Below are positions 9,343-28,717 of a DNA stretch of 64,000 nt, one piece after another. Made by a program: the position numbers and the translations under genes. The number at the start of each line of letters is the position of its first letter. Positions within the stretch are counted from its first letter, which is position 1. The DNA comes from Alteraurantiacibacter aestuarii (GTDB taxonomy: Bacteria; Pseudomonadota; Alphaproteobacteria; Sphingomonadales; Sphingomonadaceae), in NCBI RefSeq assembly GCF_009827405.1, contig NZ_WTYY01000003.1:248001-312000 (forward strand). The letters are read 5' to 3'. The notes under the pieces are model-generated. The model did not search any database, was not told the DNA's origin, and saw nothing but the letters and a program-made list of their open reading frames with translations.

Positions 9343-10779
<1,437 letters not shown>

Positions 10780-19832: not shown

Positions 19833-20450
19833 CTATTCACGGCTTTCCGGCCCGCTTTCTGGCCCACTCTCCGGACTCGTCTCCAGCAGGGTGGTGAAGG
19901 CCGAAACGTCGCCCCCGGTAACGGTTCGATCACCGTATTCCAGCCAGGCGTGGGCGGCAAAGCCGGTCTCGGCAGGCCGGTCGACGCCGATAACGATGGC
20001 GGTGGCGATCCCTCTGGCCGTCAGCAGGCGCTGTGCCGCAATCGCCTGAATCAGACAGTCGGAGCGCCAGGGTATGTGACGCGCAACGCCTGGCACGGCC
20101 CTTGCCACCAGATCAACCTGCGCCGCATCACCCGCCAGCGCCTTACCGGCGGCCCGACCCGATCTGGCGGCAATCCGGTTGTACAGGTGGATATCGCCAG
20201 CCTCGAGCCGCACCAGCCGCAACCGCGCACGCGCCAGTTCCATCAGCGCGCGGATTGCCAGCAAGGGCAGGCCTGTCGCAAGGCCCGGTCCAGACCTATC
20301 CCGCACAGATCCGGATCGCCCCGGGCTTTCGGGAGGAGGCGGGGCCGCAGGAGATGGTGTCTCGTCCACAGGCTCAGAAATGGCAGCTTTGCGGGTTGGT
20401 GCCAAGCTTGCATTCTTCCCGGCCAGACCTATCCTGAGAGCACAGGACAA
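19833..20450 (-). CDS. Lasso peptide leader protease B2 (transglutaminase-like)
   Basis: A protein of up to 205 residues. The C-terminal domain is the lasso B2/Transglut_core3 fold, with catalytic Cys132 (RSDCLIQAIAAQRLL), His167 (GFAAHAWLEYGD) and Asp174. It removes the leader from the precursor before cyclisation, in the cytoplasm. The first about 55 residues are Pro/Ser-rich, unusual for B2 and begin with TTG without a clear ribosome-binding site, so the true start may lie further in. The C-terminus repeats SGPE (SPESGPESGPESRE). It is divergent from the rest of the cluster, with 83 bases between this start and that of the oxygenase gene. Confidence 0.9.
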   Translation of the reverse strand: MSCALRIGLAGKNASLAPTRKAAISEPVDETPSPAAPPPPESPGRSGSVRDRSGPGLATGLPLLAIRALMELARARLRLVRLEAGDIHLYNRIAARSGRAAGKALAGDAAQVDLVARAVPGVARHIPWRSDCLIQAIAAQRLLTARGIATAIVIGVDRPAETGFAAHAWLEYGDRTVTGGDVSAFTTLLETSPESGPESGPESRE

Positions 20451-20533
20451 GGGTTGTTGATGCGTATCTGCCCCGCTGCTTTCGCATCGTGACCCGTTCC
20501 GTGAAGGCTTGCCGTTTGCCGGAGTAAGAGTTG

Positions 20534-21406
20534 ATGGTTCAGTCTTTCAAGGAACGGATGAAGGACCATGACTACGGGCAGATGCACCTGCTCGCCATCT
20601 CTCTGATGCAGAGTAATCGCAAGGTCCCCTGGTACGATGCCCATTTCCTCAGAAGCTTCGAGATCGCCAAGCAATATCTGCAGCTTGTCCGGCCAGACAG
20701 GCTGGACGAATTCATTGCCGGATTTGCTCCGATCAGGACCCCGGCCGATTTCACGGTGAAGAAGGTTCGCGACCTTTTCCCGGGTGAATTGCAGGCGGAA
20801 ATGCGCGCCATAGTCGCCGGACTGAAAGAGCAGCAGCTGGAGAAGCACGAACTGGCAAGCTTCGGCCGCCACGTGGTGCATGACCACCCGTTCTTCCTCG
20901 ATCTGCAACGCCAGATACTGCCACGCGTGAGCGAACTGGCCGGTCAGGAGGTGGAAGCCGGTTACAACTTCCTCAGCCTCTACGGCAATGCCGGCCGGTG
21001 CGAACCGCATATGGACGAGCCTGTCTCCATGTATACGCTGGACTATTGCATCGACCAGGAAGGGGACTGGCCGATATATTTCAGCAGGGTGGTGGATTGG
21101 CCCGGCGCGGCCGAATTGCAGAACTGGAACCCGGAGGAAGTTCTGCGCGATCCTTCGATGGATTTCCGCGCGGAAGTCATCCAGCCCAATGAAGCGATCC
21201 TGTTCGCTGGCAGTTCTCAATGGCACTATCGCAAGGCCATGCCTCCGGGCGGTTATTGCAACCTTCTGTTCTTTCATTACTTTCCGGCAGGTTGCAGCGA
21301 CCTGATCACGCCGACGGGATGGGCGCGCTATTTCGATATCCCGGAGATGGAACCCTTGTGTGACCTGTTCGCCGATTTCTACTCGGTGTCGGCCGGGGAC
21401 CAGTAG
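20534..21406 (+). CDS. Putative 2-oxoglutarate/Fe(II) oxygenase of the lasso cluster
   Basis: A 290-residue protein. The C-terminal half has a plausible facial triad: His159 and Asp161 (CEPHMDEPVSMYTLDY) and His231 (GSSQWHYRKAMPPGG), spaced as in the cupin-type Fe/2-oxoglutarate oxygenases. The N-terminal half is helical and not recognised. It is the first gene of the plus-strand lasso operon, two bases before the cyclase start, so it is very likely a tailoring enzyme. Lasso peptides with beta-hydroxylated Asp made by a cluster-encoded dioxygenase are known (canucin type). Whether this enzyme acts on the ring Asp, on Pro or on another residue is unknown. The ATG at 20534 follows GGAG by nine bases. 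Confidence 0.7.
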   Translation: MVQSFKERMKDHDYGQMHLLAISLMQSNRKVPWYDAHFLRSFEIAKQYLQLVRPDRLDEFIAGFAPIRTPADFTVKKVRDLFPGELQAEMRAIVAGLKEQQLEKHELASFGRHVVHDHPFFLDLQRQILPRVSELAGQEVEAGYNFLSLYGNAGRCEPHMDEPVSMYTLDYCIDQEGDWPIYFSRVVDWPGAAELQNWNPEEVLRDPSMDFRAEVIQPNEAILFAGSSQWHYRKAMPPGGYCNLLFFHYFPAGCSDLITPTGWARYFDIPEMEPLCDLFADFYSVSAGDQ

Positions 21407-21408
21407 GC

Positions 21409-23307
21409 TTGGCGGGCATAGCCGGAATCTTTCATGCCGGCGGCAAGCCGGCCACCCGGCAGGCGATCACCGCGGCGGGCGAGGCCATGCGCTATCGTGG
21501 GCCGGACGGCATAACCCACTGGATTGGCGCACGTGCGGCGCTGGCGCACTGCCGCATGTGCACCACGCCCGAATCGCTGGAGGAGTGCCAGCCCGCTGCC
21601 AATGATGCCAGTGAAGACGCCGCCATTGTTCTGGTGATGGACGGCTTCTTGTCCAACTGGGAAGAGTTGCGGCGCGATTTCACCGCCCGCGGCATCCGTC
21701 TGCGCAATCGATCCGATGCCGAACTGGCGCTGCGGGCATATGAGGTCTGGGGGGAGGATTGCCCGCGCCATCTGGACGGAGAATTTGCCCTCATAGTCTC
21801 TGACGCGCGCAACCACTCGCTGTTCGCCTGCACCGATCATCAGGGGCTGCGCACACTGCACTGGCACTGGGATGGAGCCACGCTGTTTCTGGCCACCGAT
21901 GTCGCGGGCGTTCTGGCCGCGATGGAACAGGCACCGTCGGTTAATCTGGGCTACTTCACCGAAATACTCGCCGATGAGTGGTATTCGCTGGACGAAACCG
22001 TGTGGAAGGGCGTGATGCGCCTGCCTCCGGCCCACTCCTTGCGGCTGGGCCGGGGTGAGCCTCGACTGACCGAATACTGGCAAGTCAGTCCCGAAATAAG
22101 CATCGTTTACGCAGACGAGCGCGACTATGCCGAGCATTACCGCGAGCTGCTGTTCGATTGCGTTCGCAGGACTTCGCGCAGTCACCTGCCTCTGGCCATT
22201 GAAGTCAGCGGCGGGCTCGATTCCTCGGCACTGTATTGCGTAGGGCACGAACTGGACAGACAAGGACGGCTGCTGGCACCGGAAATGCGCGGCTACGCCC
22301 TTGCCGGCATCCCCGGCACGGGTTCGGACGAGCTGGCCTATGTCAACGCGGTGGAGGAGCATGTGGGGCGGGTCATCCAGCGCGAGCCCCTGTTCCTTGC
22401 CGGGCTGGATTGGTACGAACGCCGGTCCCGGCTCGACCGCGACCTTCCGCCGCGACCGAACGCGGCGATGGGACTGAACATGCAGCAAAGGCTGGTCGCG
22501 GACGGATGCCGTGTTTCCATCAACGGTCACGGCGGCGACCAGTGGCTGGACGGAACGCAGAATTACTATTTCGAGATGATGGCGGCCGGCCAGTGGAAAC
22601 AACTGGCCAGTGCCTATGGTGCCGATTGCAGATCCTATGGCTGGAGGCCCGCAACCGGCTTCCTCACCCGCTACGGGATCTGGCAATTTGCTCCGGACGG
22701 CCTGCGACGCCTGCGTAAAGCTCTGGCTCCGCAACAGAATGATGACTGCAATGGCTGGGTGCTTTCCCCGCAGGCCGGCAAGGAACTGGCCGAACGCAAG
22801 GACCGCTATTTTGCGCCGCTGCCAAAACCGGCACGGCTGCGCTACAAGCAGCAAAAGCACCTCTTCCCCTACCTGCCATTGGCCCTGTCTCAGGGCGAGC
22901 GGCAGCTGGCGCATGTTGGCGCCGAACCGCGCAGCCCGATGCTGTCACGGGCTTTCATCGAATTTTCCGCGGCAACGCCGGAACACATCCGCCTTCGCGG
23001 CGGGGAAAGACGCCGGGTCCACCGCACAGGATTGCGTGGAATACTGCCCGAATTGGTTCGGAATCGTGCCGACAAGGCCGAATTCTCCGCATCAATCGAA
23101 CATTCGGCCGCCGAGTTTACCAAATTTGTTACCCAACCGATGCCAACGGCGATTCATCAACTGATTGATTCTGAAGACTTATCGAAAATATTGTCATCGT
23201 ATTGCAACGCACCAATTGACCAGAGGCCCCTTTGGCAAGTATGGAGCCTTTACGAAATTTACTTAATTCTTCGGCTTAACCAGCCGTTAGAAGTACAGAA
23301 CCCTTGA
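21409..23307 (+). CDS. Lasso peptide cyclase C (asparagine synthetase-like)
   Basis: A 632-residue protein related to asparagine synthetase B. It adenylates the side-chain carboxylate of the ring Asp or Glu and closes the isopeptide bond with the N-terminus of the core. The ATP PP-loop SGGLDSS spans residues 267-273. The N-terminus reads MAGIAGIFHAGG, where asparagine synthetase has MCGI. The nucleophile Cys2 is Ala, so the glutaminase half must be inactive, as expected for a cyclase that uses an amine rather than ammonia. The start is TTG, two bases after the oxygenase stop, indicating coupling. The precursor gene follows 17 bases after the stop. Confidence 0.93.
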   Translation: MAGIAGIFHAGGKPATRQAITAAGEAMRYRGPDGITHWIGARAALAHCRMCTTPESLEECQPAANDASEDAAIVLVMDGFLSNWEELRRDFTARGIRLRNRSDAELALRAYEVWGEDCPRHLDGEFALIVSDARNHSLFACTDHQGLRTLHWHWDGATLFLATDVAGVLAAMEQAPSVNLGYFTEILADEWYSLDETVWKGVMRLPPAHSLRLGRGEPRLTEYWQVSPEISIVYADERDYAEHYRELLFDCVRRTSRSHLPLAIEVSGGLDSSALYCVGHELDRQGRLLAPEMRGYALAGIPGTGSDELAYVNAVEEHVGRVIQREPLFLAGLDWYERRSRLDRDLPPRPNAAMGLNMQQRLVADGCRVSINGHGGDQWLDGTQNYYFEMMAAGQWKQLASAYGADCRSYGWRPATGFLTRYGIWQFAPDGLRRLRKALAPQQNDDCNGWVLSPQAGKELAERKDRYFAPLPKPARLRYKQQKHLFPYLPLALSQGERQLAHVGAEPRSPMLSRAFIEFSAATPEHIRLRGGERRRVHRTGLRGILPELVRNRADKAEFSASIEHSAAEFTKFVTQPMPTAIHQLIDSEDLSKILSSYCNAPIDQRPLWQVWSLYEIYLILRLNQPLEVQNP

Positions 23308-23324
23308 AGAACAGGACAGACGTG

Positions 23325-23483
23325 ATGGCTCATAACGGCGTAACCGGTGAATCCATGAAGAAGGCCTACGCGGCCCCGGCGCTGACCGAGTTCGGTTCGG
23401 TGCGCAACCTGACCGGTGGCAGCGGCGGCTCCAATCCCGACTTCGGCGGCATGCGTATGGTGGTATTCGTTCCGCCAATGTGA
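23325..23483 (+). CDS. Lasso peptide precursor A
   Basis: A 52-codon gene starting with ATG eight bases after AGGA. The leader (1-31) contains YAAPALTEFGSVRNLTG. Counting from the proposed cleavage site, Tyr15, Pro18, Leu20 and Thr30 fall at -17, -14, -12 and -2, the positions conserved in lasso leaders for B1 binding and cleavage. The core is residues 32-52. The ring GSGGSNPD closes Gly1 to Asp8. The tail is FGGMRMVVFVPPM. A 9-residue ring would need cleavage after Thr30, which breaks the Thr -2 rule. Bulky plug candidates in the tail are Met12, Arg13, Met14 and Phe17. The tail has no Ser or C-terminal hydroxyl, which matters for the kinase nearby. Confidence 0.9.
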   Translation: MAHNGVTGESMKKAYAAPALTEFGSVRNLTGGSGGSNPDFGGMRMVVFVPPM

Positions 23484-23573: not shown

Positions 23574-24698
23574 ATGAGCGCGATCCTCGAAGAACATCAG
23601 GAATACATGTCCCTCACCGGTCGATATGACCGGTATTCGGCGGCAATCGAAAAAGTGATCAAGTCAGGCGACGTGGTCGCCGATCTGGGCTGCGGTTTTG
23701 GCGTGCTGGGCATTCAGTGTCTGGAAGCCGGCGCCAGCCAGATTTATGGCATCGATCATTCCGATGCGATTGAGATCGCCCGCGAAAGCGTTAAACGCGC
23801 CGGGCTTGCTGATCGTTACACTTGCATCCGTGGCTCTTCCTTCTCCGCAGTGCTGCCGGAAAAGGTCGATGTGCTCATCTGCGACCATGTCGGGTTCTTC
23901 GGCGTGGATTATGGCATCATGGAAATGGTGCTGGATGCCCGGCGCCGCTTCCTGAAACCTGGCGGACGGATCGTGCCGCGCCGGATCACCTTGATGATAT
24001 CGGCAGTTCAGTCTCCCGAATGCCGCGCCAAGGTGGATTTCTGGGATAGCGGAAAGGCCCCCGCCGTCTATCAGTGGCTCAGCGAACAGGGCGTCAACAC
24101 CAAATATCAGTATGATTTCCCGGGCGCCCAACTGTGCGCGCAGCCGGTCACCCTGGGCGATATCGATTTGCATTCCGACATCCCCGAGAACCTGTCATTC
24201 TCGGCCACTTTGCTGGCCACGCGCGATGCGCAGTTTGATGGTCTGGTCGGCTGGTTCAATTGCGAGATTGCCGAAGATGTGTGGATGACCAATTCACCGC
24301 TCGATGAACAGGCGATCGAACGGCCCAACGCCTTCTTTCCCTGCAGCGAGCCATTTCAGGTCCGTGCTGGCGATGAGATCGGTATCTCCATCCGCGTGCG
24401 GCAAGATGCCGAGACCATTGCCTGGACAATCCGCCCGCCCAATGGTGCACCCAGACAGAAGATGTCGACATGGCAGACGCGCATCCTGGCCCCGCAGGAT
24501 CTGGCTGAGAATGCCGACACCCCGCTGCGCCTCAACACGCGCGGTGAAGCACATAAGGCGATACTGGCGCTGATTGATGGCCAGCGCACAATGGCACAAA
24601 TCGAAGACGCCATGCTTGCAAGTCATGCCAACCTCTTTTCAACCGAAACGCTCCTGCGCCGCTTCGTTCGACAGGCAATGGCCAAGGACACGTCTTGA
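23574..24698 (+). CDS. PRMT-like SAM methyltransferase with PqqD-like C-terminal region
   Basis: A 374-residue protein. Residues 35-48 (VADLGCGFGVLGI) form SAM motif I. The layout through LKPGGRIVPRR, followed by a beta-rich domain, resembles protein arginine methyltransferases. However, the double-Glu loop is altered: Asp104 and Asp112 stand near where the two Glu should be (CDHVGFFGVDYG). The last about 55 residues (LNTRGEAHKAILALIDGQRT, then AQIEDAMLASH) resemble a PqqD/RRE fold, which could bind the lasso leader. It lies 90 bases after the precursor, and its stop overlaps the kinase start. The target may be Arg13 of the core, the C-terminal carboxylate or another group; this is inference. 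Confidence 0.75.
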   Translation: MSAILEEHQEYMSLTGRYDRYSAAIEKVIKSGDVVADLGCGFGVLGIQCLEAGASQIYGIDHSDAIEIARESVKRAGLADRYTCIRGSSFSAVLPEKVDVLICDHVGFFGVDYGIMEMVLDARRRFLKPGGRIVPRRITLMISAVQSPECRAKVDFWDSGKAPAVYQWLSEQGVNTKYQYDFPGAQLCAQPVTLGDIDLHSDIPENLSFSATLLATRDAQFDGLVGWFNCEIAEDVWMTNSPLDEQAIERPNAFFPCSEPFQVRAGDEIGISIRVRQDAETIAWTIRPPNGAPRQKMSTWQTRILAPQDLAENADTPLRLNTRGEAHKAILALIDGQRTMAQIEDAMLASHANLFSTETLLRRFVRQAMAKDTS

Positions 24699-25543
24699 CG
24701 TCATTCGCCGAAGCTCCACCGCAGTCCCAGAAGGCCGTCCGCACCAGCCCCTATGACAGTTGGGTAAGCCCCGATGGTTCCACCATTGCGCAGTTTTACC
24801 GCAGGGATGGCGGCTATCTGGTGCGCTTTCCCGACCAGGCCGATTTCGAGATCGCATCGGGCACCTTGAGCACGCGCGCCTGCGCGGTGAGCGAGGACAT
24901 GCGCCCGGTTGCAATAACCCTGTATCACAATGCCATCCTGCCGATGATCGGCAATTATCGCGGTGGGCTGAACCTGCATGGCAGCGCGATTGATCTGGAT
25001 GGCAGGGCAGCGGCATTCCTGGGTGCTTCACGGCGCGGCAAGACAACGCTGGCAGGCGCATTTGCCAAGGCTGGCCATCCCTATCTTTCCGAAGATGTCG
25101 TCGCCATCGAAGCGGATGAAGATGCATTTCTGGTCAATCCGGCGCGCGCGGTTTTGCGGCTGTTTCATGACAGCGCGTCTTTCCTGCTTGGCCATGATCC
25201 GGATTGGACGGATGAAGACGGCAAGCAGGAACTGGCGACAGGAGCATCGCTTCCGTTCAGCCGGGACAGCGTGCCGCTCGCCAGTATCTATCTGCTTGGG
25301 CCGGGCGACGCCACGAAGCCGCAGATTCGCCGGATCGAACCGCAGCGCGCCCTGGCCCAACTGCTGCCCCACGCCTTCATTCTGGACGTGGAAGACAAGG
25401 GTCGATTGCGCGGCCATTTTGAGAGACTCGGCAATCTGTCATTCAAGTTGCCGTGCTACGAACTCGATTACCCGCGTGAATTTGAGATACTTCCACAGGT
25501 TATCGATGCTATTCGCAACCACATGAAAGAATCGGACGCTTAA
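24695..25543 (+). CDS. HPr kinase-like lasso peptide kinase
   Basis: A 282-residue protein of the HprK/P type. Residues 110-118 (GASRRGKTT) form the P-loop with Lys116. LHGSAIDLDGRAAAFLG precedes it, and LSEDVVAIE with Asp134 follows, as in HPr kinases. Relatives in paeninodin-type lasso clusters phosphorylate the C-terminal Ser of the precursor. Here the core ends in Met, so the acceptor is not obvious. The TTG start overlaps the methyltransferase stop (TTGA) and the stop overlaps the B1 start (TAATG), so all three are translated together. Confidence 0.82.
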   Translation: MTSFAEAPPQSQKAVRTSPYDSWVSPDGSTIAQFYRRDGGYLVRFPDQADFEIASGTLSTRACAVSEDMRPVAITLYHNAILPMIGNYRGGLNLHGSAIDLDGRAAAFLGASRRGKTTLAGAFAKAGHPYLSEDVVAIEADEDAFLVNPARAVLRLFHDSASFLLGHDPDWTDEDGKQELATGASLPFSRDSVPLASIYLLGPGDATKPQIRRIEPQRALAQLLPHAFILDVEDKGRLRGHFERLGNLSFKLPCYELDYPREFEILPQVIDAIRNHMKESDA

Positions 25544-25827
25544 TGGACAAGAATGCCAAGGTTGAGACCTCTGACGACGTTGTATCTCGCTCCGTGGGTG
25601 GTGAAGCCGTGTTGCTCAACTTGTCCAGTGGCACCTATTTCGGCCTCAACGAAGTTGGCAGCGCAATCTGGGAATTGCTCGACAAGCAGAGCCTGAACCT
25701 TGCCGGTATCTGCGACCAAATCGAGGAAGAATTCGACGTCACCCGCGACCAGCTTGAAAGCGACGTGGCGGCACTGGTCGAAAAGCTGCTCGAAAACGAT
25801 CTGCTGATAACTTCCAGCGATGCCTGA
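25543..25827 (+). CDS. Lasso peptide leader-binding protein B1 (PqqD/RRE)
   Basis: A 94-residue PqqD-family protein, the RiPP recognition element of lasso systems. It binds the leader Tyr/Pro/Leu motif and presents the precursor to B2. The segments EAVLLNLSSGTYFGLNEVGSAIWELL and ITRDQ-like VTRDQLESDVAALVEKLLENDLL are typical. Its ATG overlaps the kinase stop by one base. It ends the plus-strand lasso operon, 23 bases before the end of the convergent ABC exporter gene. Confidence 0.92.
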   Translation: MDKNAKVETSDDVVSRSVGGEAVLLNLSSGTYFGLNEVGSAIWELLDKQSLNLAGICDQIEEEFDVTRDQLESDVAALVEKLLENDLLITSSDA

Positions 25828-25850: not shown

Positions 25851-27503
25851 TCAGCCAGGGTCTGAGGTGGTGATCCGCCCGTGATCCAGCCGAATGATGC
25901 GATTGGCCAGCGCCAGGCTGGCGGGCCGATGCGTCACCAGAATTACCGTCCGGCCCGCCAGCGCCGTCTGACACTCCTCCACAAGAGCCAGCTCGGCCTC
26001 CAGATCATACATCGATGTCGCTTCATCCATGATCAGGATGGGCGGGTTGAGCACCAGTGCCCGCGCCAGCGCAATCCGCTGCCTCTGGCCGCCTGACAGG
26101 CGCACGCCGTTGTCACCGATCCAGGTTTCGTATCCATCGGGCAATTCGGCAATGAATTCGTCCGCCTGCGCCAGCTGCACGGCCTGCTCTATCCGCTGGT
26201 CATGGGGATCATCCAGCGCCAGCGCGATATTGTCGCGAACGGTGCCATCGAACAGCAGGGCGCGCTGGGGGACAAGCGCGATCTGCCGCCGCAGCGCCTG
26301 CACCTGAAAGGTGGAAATGTCCTGCCCGTCCAGCAAAATCCGGCCAGCGTCGGGCACGTAGAATTGCTGTAGCAGGCTGATCAAGGTGGATTTGCCCGCG
26401 CCATTCTCACCGGTCAGCGCAACGATTTCACCCGCCTTGATATCAAGATCTATGTTGCTGAGTGTTGCGCGCCGTCCCGGATAGGCGAAGGATACGTCTT
26501 CAAACCGGATCGCGCCCCTGACGGCGCCCGGATCACCCGCCAGCGCATAGCCGGGCTCAGCCTTTTCGCCGAGCAGGGCTTCAAGCCGGGCAAGAGTTCC
26601 CGCCGCCCATTGATAGCGGCCATAGAAATCCGCCAGCGCGCCCACCGGCCGGGTCAACAAGGCGGCGTAGAGCAGGAAGCGGAACATATCCGCTGGCGTG
26701 CGGTTCGCCGTGGTCAGATCGCTCATGCCAAATACGATCAGCGCGATAATTCCCAGCCCGGCCAGCAGCCCCACCGCAGGCCCCAGGATCGAATCCACCC
26801 GCGCCTGATGAAACTGCAACTGGCGCGCCTGTTCCACATGGTCTGCGTAAACGGCATCCTGCCGTTCCTCGATGGCAAAGGACTTGATCGCAGGAAGAAT
26901 GGCCAGCTGGCGCTCGGCCGTCATGAACACGGTGGCTTCGGCGTCCCGGCTCCGCTCTCCCAGCCGCCTTATCCGCCGTCCGCCGATCTTCATCAGCAGG
27001 AAGAACCCCGGAATGATCAGCGGTATGAAAAGCGCCAGCATCGGGTCGATCATGAACAGCAGGATCGTGGCGCCTGCCCCGGTGATGAGCATGGCCGGCG
27101 CCCGCGCCAGCGTGGAGGACAGGAAGGAGCTGAGAAGCGTGACCTCATATGTCATCAGCGCCAGCAGATCGCCTTGGCGGCTGCGATCGTGAAATCCGAT
27201 CGGCAGGCTCTGGACATGGGCATGGGTGCGATTGCGCAGGTCGGCCAGTATCTTGCCCGAGGTGGAGGCCGACAGAATTGCCGCCGCCGAATGCAGCGCG
27301 CTGATGGCGATCAGGCCGATTATCAGCAGCCCCACGCCCATATTGGCAAGCTGCGCCTGCGCCGCCACCACATCGCCCAGCACGTTGCCGGCCAGCCACG
27401 GCAGCGCCAGCATGGCAAGCGATTCCCCGGTCGCCAGCAGGGCGATCAGCACCAGACTGCCGCGGTATTCGCGCGCCTTGGCCAGCATGAAACCCGCCTT
27501 CAT
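25851..27503 (-). CDS. ABC exporter of the lasso peptide (D protein)
   Basis: A 550-residue half-size ABC exporter with an N-terminal six-helix domain and a C-terminal ATPase. The Walker A is GENGAGKST, the signature LSGGQRQR, the Walker B ILIMDEAT and the switch His is in LVTHRP. It lacks a C39 peptidase domain, so it does not cleave leaders, which agrees with cleavage by B2. It probably exports the mature lasso peptide and may give self-immunity. The ATG at 27503 overlaps the stop of the nucleotidyltransferase gene (ATGA). A longer reading from 27578 lies inside that gene. The minus-strand pair converges on B1. Confidence 0.92.
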   Translation of the reverse strand: MKAGFMLAKAREYRGSLVLIALLATGESLAMLALPWLAGNVLGDVVAAQAQLANMGVGLLIIGLIAISALHSAAAILSASTSGKILADLRNRTHAHVQSLPIGFHDRSRQGDLLALMTYEVTLLSSFLSSTLARAPAMLITGAGATILLFMIDPMLALFIPLIIPGFFLLMKIGGRRIRRLGERSRDAEATVFMTAERQLAILPAIKSFAIEERQDAVYADHVEQARQLQFHQARVDSILGPAVGLLAGLGIIALIVFGMSDLTTANRTPADMFRFLLYAALLTRPVGALADFYGRYQWAAGTLARLEALLGEKAEPGYALAGDPGAVRGAIRFEDVSFAYPGRRATLSNIDLDIKAGEIVALTGENGAGKSTLISLLQQFYVPDAGRILLDGQDISTFQVQALRRQIALVPQRALLFDGTVRDNIALALDDPHDQRIEQAVQLAQADEFIAELPDGYETWIGDNGVRLSGGQRQRIALARALVLNPPILIMDEATSMYDLEAELALVEECQTALAGRTVILVTHRPASLALANRIIRLDHGRITTSDPG

Positions 27504-28717
27504 GACCGGCTCCTCCGGGCAAGGAGGCGGAACGGTCCGGCGACCAGCCGCAGCAGATAGAGGATCGGCAGCGGCCAATCCCCCAAATCCGGAAAACGCT
27601 CACGCATCTGGTCACGGCCAGGACACAGGCGCGCTGTCACAAGGTCGAACCTGGACCTCATGTCCGGGCAGCCCTGCAGATCTGACCGGAACCTGGAAAA
27701 CCCGTTTGCCGTGCCGATGTAATGCGTCACCCAATTGGTGGATGGTGCGGCCCGCCACTGTTCCAGCGTGGCCTGCGGAACCTGCGTGCCGAACAGGCTG
27801 ACGGTTTGTTCCAGCATGGCAAGACAAATCGGTGCCAGATGGCGTTGCATCACGCTTCCGGTCAGCTCGCTCCAGTCCTCCTGCGAGAAGGAAGAGGCGA
27901 GCAGGTGGTTATCCAGCAGCCAGATCAGCCGCACGGTGCCTTTCAGCTTTTCCCCGTCGACATAATAGCCGTAATGTTCGTGCAGCGACTGGTTCACGCA
28001 TCCCTGCATGAAAGTTGTGACCGGATCGGTGCCGCGCGCGCTGCCGCACAGCTTGGGCAGCGGCCTGGACCGGGCGAAACACTCCTCCACATCGAAAAGG
28101 CGGCGCAGGGCAGGCATGTTCGTGACCTGCCAATGGAGATCGAAGCTGTGCACGAAGCCGATGCCGGAATCGGCCCACCAGCTTTCCTGAAAGATCCGTC
28201 CCTGAGCCAGGCAATCATACCCGCATTCGCCCAGAATCTCTCTGGCGCGGGCCAGCTGTTCCTTTCTGACCAGCAGATCACTATCGGTGCGCGATCGGGC
28301 GGCAGCGGATGGATAGAGCGAATAGGCCAGCGCCGTGCCCTTCATCACCAGGACATCAATCCCCGCTGCGTGAAACAGCTCCAGCACATGCACCAAGGTT
28401 GCGCGATGCGATTCTTCCCACAGCGCCTGCAAGGCAGCCGCCTTGCGCAGGTCCTGCAAAAGTCCGGCGGGGAAATTCGCCAGTTCGGGCAATCTTGCAT
28501 GCAGCTGGTGAACCACGCCGTGGAAATTCACCCGCTGCATGACGGCGCTTGCCGATACTGGCGCCAGGTCCGTGGGCCACACCATCGGCCCCGGCCGCCC
28601 AAGCCCGGCAAGGAACTCGTCTATCGCCGGAATATCCCCCTCGCCGACAGCCGGATTCGCGATGGAAGGGCCGGCAAATTCGACGTCTGAAGAATTGGCG
28701 ATCGCCCGGTCCTGCAT
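27500..28717 (-). CDS. Nucleotidyltransferase family protein of the lasso cluster
   Basis: A 405-residue protein of the NTP_transf_5 type. The motif LVMKGTALAYSLYPS (Lys126-Gly127) followed by RSRTDSDLLV with Asp145 and Asp147 forms the nucleotidyltransferase metal site. Such genes accompany kinases in paeninodin-like lasso clusters. They could add a nucleotide to a phosphorylated peptide or act in another way; no product is established for this one. It is translationally coupled to the exporter gene. The ATG is at the 5' edge of the divergent region with rfbA. The region 28718-28907 thus drives both the lasso exporter pair and the EPS sugar genes. Confidence 0.82.
   Translation of the reverse strand: MQDRAIANSSDVEFAGPSIANPAVGEGDIPAIDEFLAGLGRPGPMVWPTDLAPVSASAVMQRVNFHGVVHQLHARLPELANFPAGLLQDLRKAAALQALWEESHRATLVHVLELFHAAGIDVLVMKGTALAYSLYPSAAARSRTDSDLLVRKEQLARAREILGECGYDCLAQGRIFQESWWADSGIGFVHSFDLHWQVTNMPALRRLFDVEECFARSRPLPKLCGSARGTDPVTTFMQGCVNQSLHEHYGYYVDGEKLKGTVRLIWLLDNHLLASSFSQEDWSELTGSVMQRHLAPICLAMLEQTVSLFGTQVPQATLEQWRAAPSTNWVTHYIGTANGFSRFRSDLQGCPDMRSRFDLVTARLCPGRDQMRERFPDLGDWPLPILYLLRLVAGPFRLLARRSRS

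Follow-up and report, generated by a model that had tools for sequence, protein, structure and literature searches.

A short gene in the DNA analysed here (the window, a stretch of 64,000 nucleotides) very probably encodes the precursor of a lasso peptide with a predicted Gly1-Asp8 ring, as judged from its sequence and its neighbours. The cluster around it also codes for a methyltransferase (MT) of the PRMT family. The new part of the analysis is a covariation: in related clusters, methionine-rich cores tend to go with a linked MT and arginine-rich cores with its absence, which hints at the enzyme's target.

The precursor and its cluster

Precursor A has the sequence MAHNGVTGESMKKAYAAPALTEFGSVRNLTGGSGGSNPDFGGMRMVVFVPPM, as translated from 23325-23483 on the plus strand. 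Counted from Gly32, Tyr15 stands at -17, Pro18 at -14, Leu20 at -12 and Thr30 at -2, and Asp39 is core residue 8. The first-pass annotation had placed the four leader residues in this way, and the translation bears it out. The protein has the features of a lasso precursor: YxxPxL in register, Thr at -2, a small residue 1 and an acid at 7-9. The proposal that the core begins at Gly32 with GSGGSNPD, and that Asp8 closes the ring, is supported by the complete lasso cluster and by the position of the acid in relatives. The start codon of the precursor is uncertain, and Met11 (23355) is a possible alternative.

The leader and core were described by a regular expression, Y..P.L.{9}T.G.{6,7}[DE], confined to short frames that have a Met upstream. 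The 64-kb window contains a single match, and 200 versions of it shuffled by triplets contain none. The curated NCBIfam model lasso_leader_L3 (NF033521) scores the precursor at 25.2 bits, above its cut-off of 19, so a current pipeline should label the gene; the earlier expectation that annotation would easily miss it is not supported. The precursor lies under the cut-offs of lasso_cyano (29.9 versus 33) and of Pfam DUF5972 (15.5 versus 22.6). Within the precursor family a Gly/Ser ring is usual, and the distinctive trait is the Met-rich tail. The precursor has Arg residues in the core (Arg44) and in the leader (Arg27).

Table 1. Features of the lasso cluster in the window.
Feature	Position	Strand	Basis or remark
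B2 leader peptidase	19833..20450	-	NF033537 lasso_biosyn_B2, 79.8 bits (cut-off 33)
Protein of unknown family with HxD...H motif	20531..21406	+	Only some relatives have it
Lasso cyclase C (Asn synthase fold)	21409..23307	+	Asn_synthase, 1.5e-29; NF033535, 281 bits, below cut-off of 525
Lasso precursor A, 52 aa (leader 1-31, core 32-52)	23325..23483	+	Translation; NF033521 above cut-off; same-place precursors in relatives
Ring part of core, GSGGSNPD, predicted Gly1-Asp8 isopeptide	23418..23441	+	Inferred from register rule; acid at 8/9 in relatives
Tail of core, FGGMRMVVFVPPM, 3 Met and 1 Arg	23442..23480	+	Sequence; Met-rich cores in relatives with linked MT
PRMT-family methyltransferase (MT) with C-terminal extra domain	23574..24698	+	Profile, AlphaFold, Foldseek
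HPr-kinase-like lasso kinase K	24695..25543	+	Hpr_kinase_C, E 0.03; HprK_rel_A, 1.5e-5; both below cut-off
B1, PqqD-type leader-binding protein	25543..25827	+	PqqD, 3.4e-21; lasso_PqqD_Bac, 58.6 bits (cut-off 80)
ABC exporter D	25851..27578	-	ABC_tran, 2.5e-35; ABC_membrane, 5.1e-29
NTP_transf_5 nucleotidyltransferase-like protein (NT)	27500..28717	-	PF14907, 1.9e-30; in 6/6 close relatives

The neighbouring genes are those of a lasso cluster (Table 1). B2 scores above its cut-off, and B1 and C are recognised through Pfam, with their NCBIfam lasso models below cut-off. The kinase K has a P-loop, FLGASRRGKTT, and is syntenic in relatives. In the six close relatives (L033-L038), A, C, MT, K, B1 and NT are present in all, B2 in five and D in four; a wzy-like flank is found in all six and rfbA in five. 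The NTP_transf_5 protein may possibly have a PsmN-like role.

The HxD...H protein has no Pfam or NCBIfam match, and a search against PDB profiles gave nothing convincing (best E 0.13). His160, Asp162 and His232 are invariant in all four aligned sequences, and we take the motif to be perhaps that of an Fe/2-oxoglutarate oxygenase. The full-length protein is found in three of the six close relatives; L033, L034 and L035 are without it, and L033 retains a 47-residue frame that looks like a remnant. In several Novosphingobium-type loci the gene lies 3' of B1 on the opposite strand.

By analogy with known lasso pathways, B1 would bind the YxxPxL leader, B2 would cleave after Gly31, C would close the Gly1-Asp8 ring around the tail, and D would export the product. 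The precursor is probably modified before the leader is removed. The putative target of kinase K is Ser2; the second core position is occupied by Ser in 47 of 48 cluster cores and by Thr in the other. The MT would act on the core, with the Met residues as its most likely site judging by the covariation.

The ring in related precursors

A comparison with precursors of related clusters, suggested earlier as a check, finds the ring acid at 8 or 9 throughout. In cluster cores with a linked MT, it is at position 8 in 22/27 and at position 9 in 5/27; in those without a linked MT, it is at position 8 in 20/20. All 47 scored cluster cores therefore have it at one of the two positions, and the core of G300, which lies outside the 27 MT-linked cores scored, also has Asp8. 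The same holds for 20/20 further cores, hand-picked from 19 loci outside the Erythrobacter-type groups.

These relatives bear on where the mature peptide begins. Gly31 is a possible N-terminus, and lasso rings of nine residues are known. A start there would place Thr at -1, however, and in the more distant relatives the Gly31 position is often filled by another residue (Gln, Arg, Met or Ala), evidence against a ring formed from Gly31. At the Gly32 position these relatives can have Ser, Ala, Asn or Thr, and numbering from there leaves the acid at 8 or 9. A mature peptide with a nine-residue ring from Gly31 is for these reasons rejected as most improbable. The small frame is also very unlikely to be a precursor gene that has decayed or is not expressed. 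The genome is an incomplete assembly (2.24 Mb, 69.7% complete), and the precursor is known here from its DNA; on the other side, the biosynthetic genes are open frames that resemble their syntenic relatives, and precursor A has kept the conserved leader residues.

The methyltransferase

The MT has the SAM fold and the barrel of the PRMTs by profile, model and fold search. A profile built from 34 homologs finds PRMT1 (8dur) at 1.2e-45, plus other PRMTs. The AlphaFold model of the window MT has a mean pLDDT of 90.3, and its top Foldseek matches are PRMT6, PRMT3 and PRMT1 chains.

The hallmarks of PRMTs are a double-E loop with two Glu and a THW loop. The window MT has neither. In an alignment to PRMT1, Asp104 takes the place of the first double-E Glu and Tyr113 that of the second, and the His and Trp of the THW loop are replaced by Glu249 and Arg250. 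The latter is nearly invariant among the MTs. The enzyme thus shares a SAM-binding core and a barrel with PRMT1, PRMT3 and PRMT6, but differs from them in these two loops and in having an extra C-terminal domain. A PqqD-like identity for this domain was rejected: hhalign of 14 C-termini against seven B1 proteins gave a probability of 0.2%, though a distant likeness may exist.

A scan of genome contigs for the MT gave 76 loci, of which 47 (L043-L089; E 8e-36 or lower) were taken as members. They span Erythrobacter and Novosphingobium to Burkholderiales, Contendobacter and Cyanobium. The loci named with L overlap with the genomes numbered with G, and some are the same genomes. A cyclase-like match is present in 39/47 loci; in L074, L075 and L078, the stretch begins too near the precursor to reveal a cyclase. 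Five of the 47 (L063, L084, L085, L087 and L089) have no recognisable precursor.

MT-like matches occur in 160 of 298 family genomes, only seven of them strong (E 1e-114 or lower); the next is G197, at 1.5e-29. Among the weak matches, only the loci behind L039-L042 were inspected. The MT of L039 (26% identical) lies in another lasso-type cluster, with a core without Met. In G315, G319, G325, G395 and G415 the MT match stops at positions 314-328 of the 375 in the profile. Four of these five MTs adjoin Met-rich cores, so the short C-terminus was not taken as a loss.

Methionine and arginine in the cores

Precursors were gathered with DNA patterns that cover the GSVRNLTG stretch. The search matched 15 of the 298 family genomes (10 of the 15 with a leader), 17/40 genomes of the window's genus and 35/114 of the genus of G041. 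A check of 52 precursor genomes found the MT in 34. Five loci without a YxxP leader (L119, L125, L130, L132 and L133) were dropped, L186 yielded no row, and the duplicates L215, L230 and L231 were taken out. The resulting table has 66 rows: 48 cluster precursors, 15 "orphans" with no visible C, and three "C-only" precursors.

At least two Met are found in 25/28 cluster cores with a linked MT versus 1/20 without (Fisher 2.4e-9, a value that ignores relatedness). Arg or Lys shows the reverse pattern, with 10/28 versus 20/20. In a scan of all 20 amino acids, counted from core residue 3, Met is present in 27/27 MT-linked cores versus 3/20 others and Arg in 7/27 versus 20/20. These are the strongest differences between the groups. 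Phe comes next, far behind at p 0.009, and heads a set of weak differences that also takes in Leu, Ser and Pro (p 0.009-0.03, uncorrected). An example pair is GSGTMMMDGTITMVQVP, with the MT present, and GSGTRFRDGAVTNSRF, with the MT absent.

One genome, G300, has a broken enzyme. Its MT frame is 281 residues long and is missing profile positions 101-192, including the CDHxG loop. The core beside it, GSGGTRGDGQLGQTRL, has no Met and two Arg. Because its MT is without the catalytic loop, G300 was left out of the 27-core scan; it is included as MT-linked in the 28-core counts and in the cyclase tree.

There are exceptions: G304 has two Met without an MT, and G303 and G325 have one Met with a linked MT. 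The three C-only precursors, which lie near C with no linked K or MT and have an MT elsewhere in the genome, contain 0, 1 and 2 Met. In the MT-bearing loci of other groups, a set that has no MT-less counterpart for comparison, at least one Met is found in 20/20 cores and at least two in 16/20. Arg or Lys is kept in 11 of these 20, so Met is no simple replacement for Arg there.

Relatedness limits how far these counts can be taken. In a cyclase tree, built from partial sequences by a quick method, the MT state changes five times, with two independent pairs on starred branches. This is too few for a sign test, so the link with Met is not significant after relatedness is considered and the Fisher values overstate the Met and Arg link.

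What the methyltransferase may act on

That core Met is the target of the MT in some form is, given this covariation, a nearly evenly balanced proposition. S-methylation of the Met to a sulfonium is a more tentative suggestion. Such a step would place a fixed cation where MT-less sister cores have Arg; the nearly invariant Arg250 of the MT would be unexpected beside a cationic product, and counts against the sulfonium. The fullest version of this account we regard as unlikely: a PRMT-fold enzyme would S-methylate lasso Met to a permanent sulfonium in the place of the Arg of MT-less sisters, loss or breakage of the enzyme would go with Arg cores, and in one branch a self-cleaving S74 fusion, described below, would free the core. 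Alternatively, the Met tail may be retained for a different purpose, metal binding for example, and methylation may occur elsewhere.

A plausible reading, though somewhat short of an even prospect, is that the MT methylates another group, be it the C-terminal carboxylate, the ring Asp, the backbone or the N-terminal amine, and that Met and Arg mark tails of two chemical kinds, each with its own target. Methylation at the C-terminus of a lasso peptide has a precedent in StspM (PMC9266682), an acid at 8/9 and a C-terminus are found in every scored cluster core, and Arg250 could bind a carboxylate. However, clusters without an MT have Asp8 and a C-terminus just as regularly, which leaves unexplained why Met tracks the enzyme, the deletion in G300 included. 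Clear membership of the PRMTs by profile and fold, together with the Arg in the window core, would suit an ordinary arginine methyltransferase acting on Arg44 or on Arg27 of the leader. This is improbable, and core Arg was rejected as the target, since it is more frequent in cores that have no linked MT (20/20 versus the 7/27 above); the Tyr at the second double-E position and the loss of the THW loop also speak against it. The leader Arg (SVRN) is found with and without the MT and does not discriminate.

If Met is the target, the related clusters would provide a natural series of matched peptides: with the MT, without it, or with an MT that has lost its catalytic loop. A charge added after translation would then replace an encoded one, and a PRMT scaffold would have been turned to a thioether.

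Comparison with known systems

The bsf cluster of Bradymonas (PMC10368454) resembles that of the window. Both have B1, B2, C, an HPr-like kinase and N genes, and in both the YxxPxL register gives a Gly1-Asp8 ring, a predicted one in the window. BsfK phosphorylates Ser3 in the ring of BsfA, which has Ile at -2; the window precursor has Thr at -2 and its Ser at position 2. The parts of the bsf description used here (PMC10368454) mention no PRMT-family MT, whereas the window has one.

Paeninodin and pseudomycoidin clusters also have a kinase beside the lasso genes, and that of pseudomycoidin a nucleotidyltransferase as well (PMC9266682). Their kinases are described as modifying a C-terminal Ser (PMC9266682), whereas the window core ends in Met (PPM) and offers no such target.

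Methyltransferases have been reported in other RiPP pathways. StspM belongs to a lasso cluster, as does the window MT, but was modelled on mitomycin-7-O-methyltransferase (PMC9266682), whereas the window MT is of the PRMT family. The aspartimide (PIMT-type) methyltransferases likewise act in RiPP pathways; these enzymes act on Asp and are PIMT-related, unlike the PRMT-family MT of the window (PMC13001092). The chemistry proposed here is found in longipeptin A, a RiPP that carries an S-methylated Met sulfonium. LopH is the proposed enzyme, an assignment described as unproved, and longipeptin A is not termed a lasso peptide in the passage on it (PMC11285071). Among the matches listed in the open-licence literature, as far as these sources describe their systems, no lasso pathway includes an enzyme of the PRMT family.

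Precursors away from the main clusters

The 15 orphan precursors follow the MT in a similar way. At least two Met are found in 4/4 that adjoin an MT, in 5/5 with an MT elsewhere in the genome and in 0/6 without an MT. For two orphans, L199 (1581 bases) and L201 (1813 bases), the loci are short, so the absent C may be an edge effect.

In ten of 15 loci examined (L168, L205, L207, L214, L216, L221, L222, L234, L235 and L236), an orphan precursor lies at one conserved site between SSF symporter and TauD genes, apart from the C clusters. The stretch fetched around these precursors contains no cyclase match; presumably they are matured in trans. At this site, the four precursors from MT-bearing genomes carry 3-6 Met, no Arg or Lys, and an S74 fusion, whereas the six in MT-less genomes have no Met, 2-4 Arg, and are unfused. 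This contrast represents a single change.

In G419 (L203) and G435 (L228), an orphan precursor and the MT form a two-gene cassette between SSB and YceD genes, and the main lasso cluster has no linked MT. There is no cyclase match near either cassette. The main cores of the two genomes have one Met each and are the only Met-bearing members of a 15-member MT-less clade; the genomes are sisters, so their Met counts as one event. L056 and L061 show the same SSB/YceD layout and probably come from the genomes G419 and G435.

Another variant has two Cys in the core. It is found in L193/L215 (G374) and L217 (G393), beside a C-like gene with no linked K or MT. An example is the tandem pair GSCAFLADSFVGAPGDGGVFINCP and GSCGFDADTLFGVSPAGNDMGFGC. 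These are possibly disulfide lasso peptides of the same leader family.

Precursors fused to a Peptidase_S74 domain

Some relatives of the window precursor carry a Peptidase_S74-like domain after the core. It is present in 11/47 named loci, 7/48 cluster precursors and 4/15 orphans. An MT need not accompany the fusion: G251 is fused without one.

Pfam S74 was found in 10/10 fused precursors scanned, and their profile matches MyRF (7dc3) at 3.3e-6 and a phage long tail fibre at 2.8e-5. A monomer model (mean pLDDT 64) gave no Foldseek match under E 1, so the support for the S74 identity comes from sequence profiles.

S74 domains of endoNF and MyRF cleave themselves with a Ser/Lys pair, S911/K916 and S587/K592 respectively (PMC8326128). 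The fused precursors keep this spacing of five, for instance as SDPRAK: the first residue is Ser in 9/10 and Cys in 1/10 (L071), and Lys stands at +5 in 10/10. The fused domain differs from endoNF and MyRF in being about 75 residues long and joined to a lasso leader and core, and it has no evident coiled coil of the kind that drives the trimers of MyRF (PMC8326128).

The conserved pair suggests that the fused precursors may cleave themselves before the Ser or Cys. If a cut is assumed there, the six MT-linked fused cluster cores are 15-17 residues long, as are 15 of the 22 unfused ones. The assumed cut gives longer cores in G251 (23), in four orphans (23-30) and in L069, L071, L079 and L080 (19-24). 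A lasso precursor of this kind would free its own C-terminus. None is among the matches listed in the open-licence literature.

One cluster, in Methylocystaceae (L081), has two precursors, one unfused and one S74-fused, marked by a leader motif at 9405 and the frame 9562-9978.
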